A DNA stretch of 30,769 nucleotides from a virus, in the IMG/VR virus record IMGVR_UViG_3300035459_000014, positions 1 to 30,769 of that record; one strand, 5' to 3'. Both the position numbers and the translations under genes were made by a program. Below, one piece after another: positions 19,764 through 30,536 of the stretch (positions are counted from its first letter, which is position 1; every line of letters starts with the position of its first letter). The notes beneath the pieces were generated by a model. That model worked only from the letters and a program-made list of their open reading frames with translations. It did not search any database and was not told where the DNA came from.

Positions 19764-20375
19764 TCACGCTCCTGCTAATTGGCGTACAAATTGATCCGCG
19801 GCCGCGCTCCAGATTTCGTCCAAGTCGGGCATGAGGCCGTCCACAACCTCATCCATTGGCGTCCATCCATACTTCCCCATGAGCGCCGCCTGGTCTGGCC
19901 CCTGCACCGGATCGGCATAGCTGGTATTGGTGCCGACTTCGCCGGTCACGCCTTCATCGGTGGTAGACACGTCAGTTGTCCAGGATTTGCCTAATTGTTC
20001 GGATGCGCCCTCCGCGGCTAATTTGTAACCTTGCACTTGACTGACGGCCCGGAGTAGTTTCGAGGCCTTGACAACACCGCGCGTCTTGCCGTATTTTCCA
20101 GACGCTGCGGCTTGCAGTGTTTCCCGCTTCATGATGGGATACCACCAGCCGCGTCCGCGCTCGTAAAATCCCATTGGCCTATGGTCTTTCAATGACATGC
20201 GCCCCGGTTGGTTGGCTTCGGTTTCTGGCGGATATTCGGCCATTCCGCCCTGAATGAGCCGCACTGATTCGGTCATGGTGTCCGTGGCAATCGGAAGGAA
20301 CGCTTGCGGCGATTGCGCCAAAGCGTCCTGAAATCCTGTCACTTGCGAGAAGTCGATAGTCGGTTCGTCTGCCAT
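19764..20375 (-). CDS. HK97 gp10-like neck / virion morphogenesis protein
   Basis: About 203 aa from ATG 20375; a TTG nine bases upstream is possible but less likely. The sequence (IATDTMTESVRLIQGGMAEY, PPETEANQPGRMS, FYERGRGWWYPIMK, then WTTDVSTTDEGVTGEVGTNT, SYADPVQGPDQAALMGKYGW) matches the pattern of phage virion-morphogenesis/HK97-gp10-type proteins. These have an N-terminal helix, a basic middle, and a T-x-Y-A-x-x-V/Q motif followed by a C-terminal helix. In such phages it acts at the head-tail junction. Here it lies unusually early, before the protease and capsid genes. It is the first gene after a strong terminator, and its own ribosome binding site is poor. Confidence 0.72.
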   Translation of the reverse strand: MADEPTIDFSQVTGFQDALAQSPQAFLPIATDTMTESVRLIQGGMAEYPPETEANQPGRMSLKDHRPMGFYERGRGWWYPIMKRETLQAAASGKYGKTRGVVKASKLLRAVSQVQGYKLAAEGASEQLGKSWTTDVSTTDEGVTGEVGTNTSYADPVQGPDQAALMGKYGWTPMDEVVDGLMPDLDEIWSAAADQFVRQLAGA

Positions 20376-20382
20376 ATACAAC

Positions 20383-20426
20383 AAAAAAACGCCTAAGTTT
20401 GCCGGACATTCCGGTTCACTCAGGCG
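20383..20426 (-). terminator. Rho-independent terminator, minus strand
   Basis: A two-part hairpin. A 9-bp outer stem (positions 20418-20426 with 20390-20398, one G-U pair) encloses an inner 5-bp CCGGA/UCCGG stem with a 3-base loop, and seven U residues follow (20389-20383). This is a convincing intrinsic terminator. It stops leftward transcription a few bases before the neck protein gene and closes the RNA unit to its right. Confidence 0.85.
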
Positions 20427-20454
20427 CTAACGTCTGCTCATTCCGCGCCTCCAG

Positions 20455-20484
20455 TGGAGGCCTTGCGGATTGCCCGTTAGGGCT
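20455..20484 (-). repeat. 30-bp repeat, copy 1 (in the RNA unit)
   Basis: Matches copy 2 at 20969-20998 in 29 of 30 bases (mismatch at 20469 versus 20983). Here it contributes the GCCC/GGGC hairpin and one strand of two further stems of the RNA candidate. One frame reads SPNGQSARPP, matching the peptide encoded by copy 2. Confidence 0.85.
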
Positions 20485-20591
20485 GAATTGATTATTTAGA
20501 TTTACATCTTGGTGTTGGAGTATCGGGTTTTTGCCCACAACAACCAACCGGCCCGCGGTCCAAGAGTAGCCTCATTTACCAAGACAAATAT

Positions 20592-20600
20592 ATTATATCA
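20592..20600 (-). promoter_or_regulatory. Extended -10 promoter driving the RNA unit
   Basis: TGATATAAT on the minus strand: a perfect TATAAT preceded by the TG of an extended -10. The -35 is weak (about half consensus at 17-18 bases spacing), as tolerated by extended -10 promoters. It lies just after the stop of the 67-aa membrane protein gene. Confidence 0.6.
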
Positions 20601-20634: not shown

Positions 20635-20838
20635 CTACCACAATCTTATATTCATAGAGTTTGTGACCTGCGCCATAAGTACGAGTAAAAAAATCGTTAT
20701 TGGCACAAGCACAGAACACATAGAATATAGAACGCACTTTTCCCATTTGTCATTTTTGGTAATCAACAACATGACCAGACAAAACACCGCACAGACCACA
20801 CAAATACAGGCCAAATAAAGCAAAATCAATTCTATCAT
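20635..20838 (-). CDS. Small two-helix membrane protein
   Basis: A 67-aa protein with two membrane segments (about 4-27: LILLYLACICVVCAVFCLVM; about 37-59: LYSMCSVLVPITIFLLVLMA) joined by a short charged loop (TKNDKWEK). GAGGA lies directly before the ATG, and only a few bases separate it from the previous stop, so it belongs to the same AT-rich cassette as the two genes upstream. Function unknown; small membrane proteins of phage accessory cassettes often act on the host envelope or on superinfecting phages, but nothing specific shows here. Confidence 0.7.
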   Translation of the reverse strand: MIELILLYLACICVVCAVFCLVMLLITKNDKWEKCVLYSMCSVLVPITIFLLVLMAQVTNSMNIRLW

Positions 20839-20845
20839 TTCTTCC

Positions 20846-21232
20846 TCACTTTCTGCCTTTGTAATGCTCTACTAAATCCGTTAGAGGCATCTGCGAACAT
20901 TCTTCACAAAAACTAACATCATTTACCAATTTAGTCGCGGGCTCTACACATCCTTCATATTGACAAATTGGAGGCCTTGCGGTTTGCCCGTTAGGGCTTT
21001 TCCAGCCTCCCGCTAATTCTAATTCTTTTGAGATATCTTCAGCCAAGGCATCATAAACCCTGCTGGCATCTGGAGACAAAATTTCTGACAATTTATCCCA
21101 CCAATCTTCTCGAAACGCCTTGAGACTCAGACCACCAGTTGCAAAGTAGCGGGATATTTCTATCAAGGCGTTGACAAATCTTTCTTTTCCAATTTCCGAT
21201 TTTACACGATTTGTATTTTCTTCGTATTTCAT
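20846..21232 (-). CDS. Zinc-ribbon accessory protein
   Basis: A 128-aa protein with a helical N-terminal part (residues 1-75: NRVKSEIGKERFVNALIEIS and SPDASRVYDALAEDISKELE) and a C-terminal four-cysteine site at Cys90, Cys95, Cys109 and Cys112 (C-x4-C-x13-C-x2-C), consistent with one bound zinc. Between them is SPNGQTARPP (79-88), encoded by copy 2 of the 30-bp repeat. The ATG overlaps the upstream YkgJ-like gene stop as ATGA. I do not recognise the family. The AT-rich composition sets it apart from the flanking head genes. Confidence 0.7.
   Translation of the reverse strand: MKYEENTNRVKSEIGKERFVNALIEISRYFATGGLSLKAFREDWWDKLSEILSPDASRVYDALAEDISKELELAGGWKSPNGQTARPPICQYEGCVEPATKLVNDVSFCEECSQMPLTDLVEHYKGRK
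20969..20998 (-). repeat. 30-bp repeat, copy 2 (in the zinc-ribbon gene)
   Basis: Matches copy 1 at 20455-20484 in 29 of 30 bases. Here it is coding, giving SPNGQTARPP, and it is GC-rich inside an AT-rich gene, so it stands out as foreign or strongly conserved. Confidence 0.85.
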
Positions 21233-21690
21233 CTTTTCTCGCTTTCTTTTTGATTATCTCCAATCTTCCAACGATTTATTTCCTTGAAATTATAACTGCA
21301 TTTTTTGAATAGCTCGACATGTTCCGGAATAATAGGCCACGCCAAACATAGCGCGCCTTCTTCGCCAATCAATAAAGACTTATGAAGGTGCATTGAGCAA
21401 TGTCCATTTATTAACAATGGACATATTTCTTCTGCCTTCCCAACCTCGCCAATTTTACGAAGTTTTATAAACCTGCGCATCCTGGGGGTGCAATATTCCG
21501 ACCAAATACCCACTGCATCTGTCGTGGTCCCCATTCTTCCCGCACCTTTATTGTTGGTGAGTTTGCCAACGCCATCGTATTCTATTCTGGTTTTGCAACA
21601 ATCCCCACAACCATTACATTCTCCGGTGCGCTCATATTCAATGCCTATCCCATTGTTGTAATCCCATTTTATAAATCTAGGAGGTTTCAT
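21229..21690 (-). CDS. YkgJ-like CxxCxxCC metal-cluster protein
   Basis: A 153-aa protein with an N-terminal CNGCGDCC motif (Cys25, 28, 31, 32) and further cysteines at 67, 90, 98, 115 and 131, the pattern of the YkgJ/UPF0153 zinc- or iron-chelating family. Family members are small metal-cluster proteins of uncertain biochemical role. It heads a three-gene, coupled, AT-rich cassette inserted between the MuF-type protein and the neck protein, both of which are normally adjacent. Only a weak purine-rich stretch precedes the ATG, four bases after the MuF stop. It is probably an accessory (moron) gene and not a virion part. Confidence 0.75.
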   Translation of the reverse strand: MKPPRFIKWDYNNGIGIEYERTGECNGCGDCCKTRIEYDGVGKLTNNKGAGRMGTTTDAVGIWSEYCTPRMRRFIKLRKIGEVGKAEEICPLLINGHCSMHLHKSLLIGEEGALCLAWPIIPEHVELFKKCSYNFKEINRWKIGDNQKESEKR

Positions 21691-21694
21691 TTAC

Positions 21695-23449
21695 TCATTC
21701 TTTCTGTGCAATTGGCGCCTGCACCGATGTCGCGTCCCAGCCCATCGCTGCCAGCATTGCCAGCGGATCTTCGTCGTGACGCGCCTCGAATTCGTCCGGG
21801 TTGGCTTTTTCGGCGTGGATGCGGTCATACAGCGATAGCGTCAGTGGCTCGCCGGATAACCACATCTCATCCCGCTCGATAGTTTCGTGAATCAGGATGT
21901 AATCGGCTTCGGCTATGTTGGCGTTGTCAATCAGCACCTCGCCTGGTTCGCACAATTTCGGCTTCTCGGGGATCTGGCCGCCATAAACCAAATCATTGCC
22001 GCCTTCTGTGAAGTCGATATAATGCGGGTCATGGTTTGGGTCACGCAGTTTATCCCCATCGACAATCCAGGCGATTTGCATCTGTCCGGGGCGCATGGGG
22101 TCGGGACGGGTTTTGTAGACGCGCAGATAATAATCACGGGAAACGGGGGCGGCGGTTGCGTCTGCCTTTGCAAGTTTATTCAACGATTTTCCGCGGACGA
22201 TGGCAACAATTTCATTGTCTTGAACCAAAACTTCATCCGAGTCATGAAATGATTCGTCTGCATTTATGTTTCTTCCTCTCAATAAAAATACATTATCACC
22301 ATATGTGCTGGCTCTATCAAACGCTTTTTGGAAATCAGATTCGTCGGTCGACGGAATATATATGGATGATGTTCCGGGCAATTCATATTCTGGAGCATCG
22401 TCGCCATGATAAGATGAATTTTGGAATTTGTCTTTTGGAATAAAATCATCTCCACGAAAAGAAAAATCGAGATTTGTTTCATCGTTGTCTATTATCTGTT
22501 TGGCCTGGTCAATTGATAAAACAGGATGACCAGAGATTGTTTTCGCTCTATTGAGTATTTCTTCGGAGTTTACTTTTGTATTCTCCATTGGCGGCTGATA
22601 ATTTTTTACATAATTCTCATATAAACTTCTGTTATATCCATATTCGATGGGCTTTGCATTATCGCCCCATCTCTCGCGCGCCCAATCACTATACCCCAGT
22701 GGCGAGTTTTTACCCTCCCCACATCCTGGCCCGCTTCCTCCTACCAATCCCGGTCTACCTTCGTGATCAAAATCTCCCGAACCTTCGCCGCCTTTGCGCA
22801 TGGTTCCAATTATAGCCATCTTCTCCAGGTCGTCAAACGCCTCGCCCAGATGGTCACCTTCCGACACGATCACGCCGTCCAGTCCCTGGCAGCCGCCTAC
22901 CGTTCCCCACGGCATTTCAAATTCCTGCGTGCATACGTCGGTATCCTTATTCGTCTGCCAGACAATGTAATCCTGGCCGCCAGCGCGCTTGATAGAGAGC
23001 CAGCACTCGCAATTCACATGCGTGTCCTCCACCGGAAGCACCGCGGCGGTCAATCCCAATTCCCGCTCATACGCCATTGACTCGCCTTGCGCGAATGCCC
23101 GCGTCATCTCGGTGGTCGCGATGCGGGATGCGCGCACCTGGTCAAATAAATGCGTATCCATCAGCGATTGCACGAGGTCACCATACGTGGCTCCGGGCGT
23201 GTCAATCCAATTGCTGATAATCTCGCCCACGCCGTCCTGAGTGGTTGTGTCAAGCTGCTGTAGCACGGTATCGGTGTAATCGCTGGCCCATTGCTCCGCG
23301 TCCTTATTGGCGAGCGTCGGATTGAAAGAGATATTCATCTTCTGCGCGGCCTGAGATTGCGCTATGAAGGCGGCGTGTTCTATGCGCGGCAACAGGATAT
23401 TCGCGAGCGTTTTTCTTTCGTTTGGCCAGAAGTCGGAGGGGAGGGTCAT
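21695..23449 (-). CDS. MuF-type minor head protein fused to two extra domains
   Basis: A 584-aa protein. Residues about 1-200 are the phage Mu gpF-like head domain (NERKTLANILLPRIEHAAFI, VRASRIATTEMTRAFAQGES, then LPVEDTHVNCECW and GGCQGLDGVIV). GEGSGDFDHEGRPGLVGGSG (221-240) is the Gly-rich hinge common in such fusions. Residues 250-430 form an AT-rich-encoded domain with FRGDDF, PGTSSIYIPS and DSDEVLVQDNE, faintly like an R-S-E ADP-ribosyltransferase layout. Residues 437-570 hold YLRVYKTRPD, a YIDFTEGGNDLVYGG segment and IHETIERDEM...YDRIHAEKANPDEFEAR, resembling a zincin-like HExxE motif. MuF proteins ride in the capsid beneath the portal and can deliver effector domains with the DNA. The head domain is confident; the other two are tentative. 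Confidence 0.78.
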   Translation of the reverse strand: MTLPSDFWPNERKTLANILLPRIEHAAFIAQSQAAQKMNISFNPTLANKDAEQWASDYTDTVLQQLDTTTQDGVGEIISNWIDTPGATYGDLVQSLMDTHLFDQVRASRIATTEMTRAFAQGESMAYERELGLTAAVLPVEDTHVNCECWLSIKRAGGQDYIVWQTNKDTDVCTQEFEMPWGTVGGCQGLDGVIVSEGDHLGEAFDDLEKMAIIGTMRKGGEGSGDFDHEGRPGLVGGSGPGCGEGKNSPLGYSDWARERWGDNAKPIEYGYNRSLYENYVKNYQPPMENTKVNSEEILNRAKTISGHPVLSIDQAKQIIDNDETNLDFSFRGDDFIPKDKFQNSSYHGDDAPEYELPGTSSIYIPSTDESDFQKAFDRASTYGDNVFLLRGRNINADESFHDSDEVLVQDNEIVAIVRGKSLNKLAKADATAAPVSRDYYLRVYKTRPDPMRPGQMQIAWIVDGDKLRDPNHDPHYIDFTEGGNDLVYGGQIPEKPKLCEPGEVLIDNANIAEADYILIHETIERDEMWLSGEPLTLSLYDRIHAEKANPDEFEARHDEDPLAMLAAMGWDATSVQAPIAQKE

Positions 23450-23910
23450 ACCGGATTCAACCTTGCAAAGTCACCAAACAATTCGCGGGCCGCTTTGTTA
23501 TAGGCGCGGGCGGCTTCAATGGCATTGTAGAAAAGGCCAATATATACCTTTTTACCACTCACCCTGATTTGTGCTTCCCAATAATTTTTATTCTTCCTTT
23601 TGTATACACCCTTATATTGGTTAGTGTTGTTTGTGTACGCACCTTTATTCCCCATGTTTTGAGCATGGGTACATGGCCTTAAGTTCTCATCTTGGTTGTC
23701 CAGGGTATCACCGTTAATATGGTCGCACTCCATTCCTTCTGGAGGCATTAATATCTCTCGGTGCATGAATATGGTTTTATATTTCTTTTTTGCGTAAACG
23801 TTTCTTACTGCATATCCATGATGATAGTGCCACTTCCACTGATTCAAGCTTTCAAATCTATGATTGGAAACTTTAGCAACCTTACCCTGAGAAAGCGATA
23901 TCTCTTTCAT
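23446..23910 (-). CDS. HNH homing endonuclease with AP2 domain
   Basis: A 154-aa protein. The HNH nuclease core is IFMHREILMPPEGMECDHINGD, with His50, Asp63-His64 and Asn66, then DNQDENLRPCTHAQNMGNKG (72-90). The C-terminal AP2 DNA-binding domain (about 97-152) reads NQYKGVYKRKNKNYWEAQIR, VYIGLFYNAIEAARAYNKAA and FGDFARLN. Such HNH-AP2 proteins are free-standing homing endonucleases that nick DNA lacking the element and promote its spread. The gene splits the usual portal-MuF neighbours, is AT-rich, has AGGTGA before the ATG, and couples to MuF through an ATGA overlap. No flanking intron splice site is seen. Confidence 0.88.
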   Translation of the reverse strand: MKEISLSQGKVAKVSNHRFESLNQWKWHYHHGYAVRNVYAKKKYKTIFMHREILMPPEGMECDHINGDTLDNQDENLRPCTHAQNMGNKGAYTNNTNQYKGVYKRKNKNYWEAQIRVSGKKVYIGLFYNAIEAARAYNKAARELFGDFARLNPV

Positions 23911-29807: not shown

Positions 29808-30536
29808 ATGTTATTCAAAAGTTTAGACGAAAACAACCACAGCCCGTATGCTGATTTTGACTTCAAAAAATACCTGCCAAAGATTGGCAAACCCGGCAGA
29901 TGGTTACCCAAAGTAACCGACTTGGAAATCTGCGCAAGCGGTTGGCATGGCTGCAAAGATGGCAACATTCTCGAATATCTGAATGCCAATATTTACGAGA
30001 TCGAAACGCGCGGAAAAGTACTGGAAGACAACGATAAATTCGCAGCGCAACAGATCCGCCTTATCCGCAAGTGCGAAGGCTGGAACGAAGTCAGCGCCCG
30101 GCTATTCGCCTGTGATTGCGCCGCGCATGTCCTGCCTATTTACGAGAAAGAATGCCCTGATGACAAGCGACCGCGTGAGTGTATCAAAGTAGCGCGTAAA
30201 TTCGCACATGGTAAAGCCACCCGCGAAGAAATGACTGCCGCCTGGGCTGCCGCCTGGCCTGCCGCCTGGCCTGCCGCCGGGGATGCCGCCTGGGCTGCCG
30301 CCAAGGCTGCCGCCTGGGCTGCCGCCTGGCCTGCCGCCTGGGATGCCGCCGGGGATGCTGCCAGGGCTGCCGCCAGGGCTGCCGCCAGGGCTGCCGCCTG
30401 GCCTGCCGCCTGGCCTGCCGCCTGGGCTGCCGCCGGGGATGCTGCCAGGGCTGCCGCCAGGGCTGCCGCCTGGGATGCCGCCGGGGATGCCGAGCATAAA
30501 TATCAAGCCCGGCCACTGATGAAGCTGTTGAAATGA
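29808..30536 (+). CDS. DUF7666-like protein with alanine-rich tetrapeptide array
   Basis: A 242-aa protein with a good ribosome binding site (AGAAAGGGAC). The first 140 residues ([78 protein letters not shown]) resemble a widespread phage protein family of unknown function. Residues 146-225 are 20 tetrapeptides of the form [W/G/R/K]-[A/P/D]-A-A, encoded by 12-bp units NGG-NNT-GCC-GCC. The result should be largely helical, with one side carrying the variable residue every fourth position. The role of the array is unknown. The C-terminus ([12 protein letters not shown]) is basic. Confidence 0.8.
30243..30482 (+). repeat. 20-unit 12-bp tandem array
   Basis: Twenty consecutive 12-bp units, with GCC GCC always constant. 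The first codon is TGG, GGG, AGG or AAG and the second GCT, CCT or GAT. Variation is limited almost entirely to one or two positions per codon. The opposite strand and the other plus frame are also open and read as collagen-like and PPG-like repeats; these are side effects of the composition. Confidence 0.95.

Follow-up and report, generated by a model that had tools for sequence, protein, structure and literature searches.

Promoter-proximal terminators that control late genes have been described best in lambdoid phages, and Q binding elements differ from one phage to another. In lambda, the pR'-tR' region consists of a late promoter, a leader and a terminator ahead of late structural or lysis genes, and is subject to Q-dependent antitermination (PMC6606751, PMC4604602). 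In HK022, the put RNA is made right after the promoter, contains two stem-loops and lets the polymerase pass terminators; this RNA suppresses termination by itself, through the beta' zinc-binding domain (PMC9378689). In Xp10, where P7 brings about antitermination, host polymerase must pass intrinsic terminators before late genes (PMC6624301).

We analyzed a virus record of 30.8 kb (IMGVR_UViG_3300035459_000014; 30,769 nt) over its whole length, which is referred to as the window. Its head module lies on the minus strand in the order terminase, portal, HNH-AP2 endonuclease, MuF-like protein, an AT-rich cassette, a promoter-terminator unit, gp206, a 112-aa protein, prot465 and capsid. We use gp206 as the name of a conserved head-module protein; prot465 is a protease/scaffold-like protein, and the assignment of the major capsid protein is likely. 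The gp206 gene (19764..20375, minus strand; 203 aa from ATG) is the first head gene downstream of the unit, and homologues of its product are found in the relatives L003, L010-L013, L016, L018, L022, L023, L026, L027, L029, L053 and others. Genome scans with the window capsid protein and with the single portal sequence returned no relative. None of the three small ORFs in the cassette (20635-21690) has a recognised relative; one of them weakly resembles a CxxCxxCC zinc/iron-chelating domain. L007 had come up as a possible relative for the 128-aa ORF (20846-21232) and was set aside, since its match to the search pattern most likely arose by chance.

The unit corresponds by sequence to the lambdoid pR'-tR' arrangement of a sigma-70 promoter, a short leader and a strong intrinsic terminator followed by late genes. 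The extended -10 element TGATATAAT (20592..20600, minus strand) is a perfect match, with a poor -35. TGNTATAAT occurs exactly once in the window; because about 0.8 such sites are expected per window by chance, a lone site proves nothing by itself. The predicted leader RNA of about 203 nt runs from a putative start near 20585 to the end of the U-run (20383..20585, minus strand) and is apparently untranslated. Its minimum free energy (MFE) is -76.8 kcal/mol (z = -4.0). The terminator is a nested hairpin, CGCCUGAGU-gaa-CCGGA-aug-UCCGG-caa-ACUUAGGCG (20390..20426, minus strand; -21.6 kcal/mol), followed by a U7 tract (20383..20389, minus strand). The ATG of gp206 at 20375 begins 14 nt past the first T and 8 nt past the end of the U-run. 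Promoter, fold and intrinsic terminator are present as an earlier reading of this DNA, made from the sequence only, had described them.

The window unit also differs from the described systems. Its first 35 nt, counted from a +1 set seven bases after the -10, contain no NANNAT, the -10-like pause element of a lambdoid Q leader; unlike pR', the unit lies inside the head module and not before an entire late operon. A lambdoid system has Q, whereas none was found in the window record, which is a fragment. As in the Xp10 system, late genes are preceded by intrinsic terminators, but no P7-like protein was identified, and the terminators studied here follow closely on a promoter of their own. Riboswitches and attenuators are similar in having a structured 5' domain and mutually exclusive antiterminator and terminator; unlike in these, neither a ligand nor a leader peptide nor an Rfam family was recognised. 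By analogy, the window unit most likely resembles an attenuated late promoter, and we assign it to none of the Q-type, put and P7 families.

We lean, by a small measure, toward reading the unit as an attenuated promoter that acts in cis and heads the gp206-protease-capsid gene group. From the extended -10, host sigma-70 polymerase would start near 20585, make a structured leader of about 200 nt and normally halt at the nested terminator at 20383, beside the gp206 start. The gp206, protease and capsid genes would then receive transcripts only upon read-through of this terminator. Such read-through might occur when the leader refolds into an antiterminator (20475-20488 / 20418-20432), or when a phage factor modifies the polymerase. 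It counts against this reading that the head genes could also be fed by read-through from upstream promoters.

The significance of the unit rests on comparison with relatives. We used a set of about 125 loci (2.53 Mb, both strands), most of which had been fetched as gp206 or capsid-protein relatives. Exact extended -10 sites numbered 24 in this set, and strong terminators numbered 67, counting all those as strong as that of the window. An exact extended -10 was located 30-260 nt upstream of a strong terminator 11 times (nine after near-identical loci were dropped) against 0.15 expected, an enrichment that is inflated by the concentration of both kinds of site in intergenic gaps. This co-occurrence accounts for part of the enrichment without explaining the one-sided order: with one -10 mismatch allowed, 18 non-redundant pairs ran from promoter to terminator and 0 from terminator to promoter. 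An ORF started at most 30 nt away in 15 of these 18 units. When 21 units were examined, a gene start lay 10-27 nt after the first T in 20, mostly that of a head morphogenesis gene, and the downstream protein matched gp206 or prot465 by BLAST in nine. The order of 18 to 0 and the regular distance to the gene start are why we favor the attenuated promoter. By comparison, they also support the earlier suggestions of a complete transcription unit and of a regulator of the downstream head genes, as relatives repeat this anatomy immediately ahead of a gene start, in most cases that of a head gene. This uncultured phage group places promoter-terminator units repeatedly before capsid-module genes. In L109, L116, L119, L129, L144 and L089, the predicted transcripts open with an AAYYRAAUAR-like sequence right after the -10.

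It is doubtful that the product of the unit is the 203-nt transcript, as an autonomous phage sRNA acting in trans on RNAs or proteins of the host or the phage, with the terminator as nothing but its 3' end. Its own promoter, strong terminator and stable fold would suit such an RNA, and short sRNA-like units also occur in L028 and L029; however, the leaders of these two barely exceed the terminator hairpin. An sRNA also has no need of a terminator 10-27 nt before a gene start, as is nearly always seen in relatives, and the leader sequence is not conserved. This lack of conservation also weakens the attenuated-promoter reading, as does the fact that some promoter calls in relatives may be chance matches; the promoter site of L005, for instance, falls within an ORF.

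The slot before gp206 was compared among relatives. A unit immediately precedes gp206 in L026, L088 and L092, as in the window, and in many other loci it precedes a protease-like or capsid-module gene. No terminator was present at the slot in L003, L011, L013, L016 and L018, and L010 has a terminator at the same place without a promoter. Such a terminator would fit a mere transcription boundary that closes the upstream operon or cassette (moron-like insulation), the -10 being a chance or leftover sequence. The AT-rich cassette upstream, whose ORFs have no relatives, and the one TGNTATAAT per window expected by chance point the same way. We nevertheless regard a boundary alone as unlikely; the enrichment of promoter-to-terminator pairs and their one-sided order speak against it, as does L029. 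This locus, whose portal and gp206 are 50% and 38% identical to those of the window, has no accessory cassette, and its order is MuF-like gene, extended -10, 59-nt leader, terminator and gp206. Its terminator is the closest to that of the window among the 66 other strong terminators (score 36.5; shuffles, -2.1 +/- 5.9). Because L029 has both promoter and terminator in this slot, they are not simply the end of a cassette, which is where the sequence-only reading had placed them. The retention of the promoter and a similar terminator with a different leader and no cassette is a further reason to favor the attenuated promoter. In a sister subgroup (L040-L042, L047-L050, L052, L054, L080, L082), two tandem terminator-like hairpins lie directly before the capsid gene start.

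In 11 relative records, head genes are preceded by a leader RNA that is conserved and covaries strongly. Three members are directly before gp206: L026:7192-7312, L088:3828-3920 and L092:3832-3924, the last being close to L088. The others are L109:3958-4046, L115:1494-1587, L116:2620-2705, L120:4579-4671, L122:3672-3765, L129:2346-2438, L130:1992-2084 and L144:2275-2361. Their layout is P1-AGGAUA-P2-(hairpin)-P2'-GAAARG-P1', then P4-linker-P5-P4' and the terminator. P1 was aligned solely from where it adjoins the conserved loops; eight of its nine pairs were changed on both sides, its covariation score was reached by 0 of 500 shuffles, and slid controls collapsed. The run was also repeated with L088 in place of L119, a member by eye that the covariance model missed. 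Without guidance, RNAalifold recovered P1, P2 and P5 from an unsupervised alignment, and 11 of 16 pairs showed compensation. A covariance model built from seven sequences found the left-out L026 (E = 1e-6), L092 (1e-8), and L129 and L130 (8e-5 and 4e-5). The family model detected one copy per record, members scoring 32-84 bits, and no family in Rfam 15 matched this RNA. The nascent fold of most members has the same P4-(5-6 nt)-P5-(0-1 nt)-P4' shape. The pairing statistic for P4, whose strands were picked by eye, is modest by itself (Fisher p = 0.02). P4' sits in the 5' arm of the terminator, so that P4/P5 compete with it, and the fact that a helix of this covarying RNA overlaps the terminator arm also favors the attenuated-promoter reading.

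The window leader is not a member of this family. With both covariance models, R1 and R2, and also with the filters off, the best window scores were 6.5-7.9 bits, at unrelated places, which rules out membership. The window does have the family's context, namely a promoter upstream, a strong terminator downstream and an adjoining head gene. The earlier reading had looked to a covariance-model search of the window leader; apart from R1 and R2, this gave no Rfam 15 match at the gathering score. The idea of a new phage non-coding RNA therefore stands for the slot and for the RNA of the 11 relatives, which is absent from Rfam, but not for the window leader, which is a non-member with no homologue found.

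Like put, the relatives' RNA has two stem-loops after a promoter, and four members have NANNAT at +20 to +23, like putL, an element that the window lacks. Unlike put, it adjoins a terminator, which overlaps P4. A search of the HK022 genome with the family model gave no significant match (best E 0.21, inside the tape-measure gene). We tentatively raise the possibility that a new class of cis-acting RNA switch, with its own promoter and with a terminator at its end beside a capsid-module gene, times the head genes in these phages, the window RNA being a diverged or replaced version. The AGGAUA/GAAARG domain might sense a ligand, the state of the ribosome or a phage factor, or might act on RNA polymerase like put. 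The relatives' RNA is well enough defined to be tested as a possible new antitermination or riboswitch-like RNA of phages, and its alignment and model can serve for wider searches.

The fold signal of the window leader sits in the 3' 108 nt (z = -5.2), and the promoter with the 5' part (20455-20600) folds in an ordinary manner (z = -0.8). In the MFE structure, the 5' domain is closed by an 8-bp stem formed by GUCUUGGU (20578..20585, minus strand) and ACCAAGAU (20506..20513, minus strand). The coincidence of this stem with the predicted 5' end had been taken as unlikely by chance; however, about 5% of window positions begin an 8-bp stem. This argument therefore weighs little, as does that from the extended -10, with its 0.8 expected sites.

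In the MFE structure of the nascent RNA without the 3' arm of the terminator, a candidate antiterminator helix forms between AUUCAGCCCUAACG (20475..20488, minus strand) and CGUUAGCGCCUGAGU (20418..20432, minus strand), the latter overlapping the 5' arm of the terminator. It encloses the hairpin UCCGC-AAG-GCCUCC-ACU-GGAGGC-GCGGA (20443..20469, minus strand), which is also part of the MFE structure of the whole leader, and the region of its 5' strand can alternatively form the hairpin GCCC-UAAC-GGGC (20472-20483, minus strand). The possible pseudoknot proposed earlier (CUAACG/CGUUAG) is better read as part of this alternative helix. As the helix excludes the terminator, it favors an attenuated promoter. 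This support is weakened by its only marginal advantage over shuffles (duplex energy, p = 0.04; pairing probability, p = 0.13) and by the matching tests in L012, L005 and L026-L029, none of which was significant one by one. The individual tests give no support to a universal antiterminator across these leaders, and we rejected it. When the window leader was aligned with the leaders of L012, L005 and L026, the result was no better than for shuffles. Neither the leader nor the sequence around it had a match in similarity searches against phages, plasmids and E. coli genomes.

A 30-nt segment of the leader (20455..20484, minus strand) is repeated with 29 of 30 identical positions inside the neighboring 128-aa ORF (20969..20998, minus strand). 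The copies share strand and reading frame, and 0 such repeats are expected by chance. No exact match to the repeat was found in the viral and genome contigs searched; its 20-base core had one match, in L006, which was discarded as an unrelated coding frame. Since the segment carries the antiterminator strand, the mRNA of the 128-aa ORF might conceivably base-pair with it, which is speculation.

The repeat also bears on whether the leader encodes a small protein, translated from the frame at 20416-20571 (51 codons, or 43 from TTG). The frame is open, and both repeat copies encode SPNGQ(S/T)ARPP in the same frame, an agreement that has a 1-in-3 chance. We consider translation very improbable, as the frame could start only at TTG or GTG, where no clear ribosome-binding site is seen, and runs into the terminator stem. 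Because tblastn gave no homologue of the 51-aa frame (best E 0.7), it is not a recognised gene.

A guide-type RNA of a TnpB/IscB mobile element had also been suggested. The structured RNA lies beside accessory genes, and an HNH endonuclease gene is about 3 kb away. This gene (23446-23910), free-standing and AT-rich between the portal and MuF-like genes, encodes the only nuclease nearby, which is of the HNH_3-AP2 homing type, not IscB or TnpB. No TnpB/IscB-type nuclease was found among the neighboring proteins scanned (Pfam, PHROGs), and no HEARO or other Rfam match was obtained. A guide RNA is thus scarcely credible here.

The adjacent MuF-like gene (21695-23449) is also partly AT-rich. Residues 1-208 (N-terminal) and 423-581 (C-terminal, 62% identical) of its product match L012, and the AT-rich middle part (about residues 210-420) has no match there; judged by sequence, this part looks like an inserted domain. 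Elsewhere in the window, a 242-aa ORF with an Imm5-like match contains a 12-bp tandem repeat array (30187-30526) that codes for AAW/AAR(P/D)AA-type repeats.
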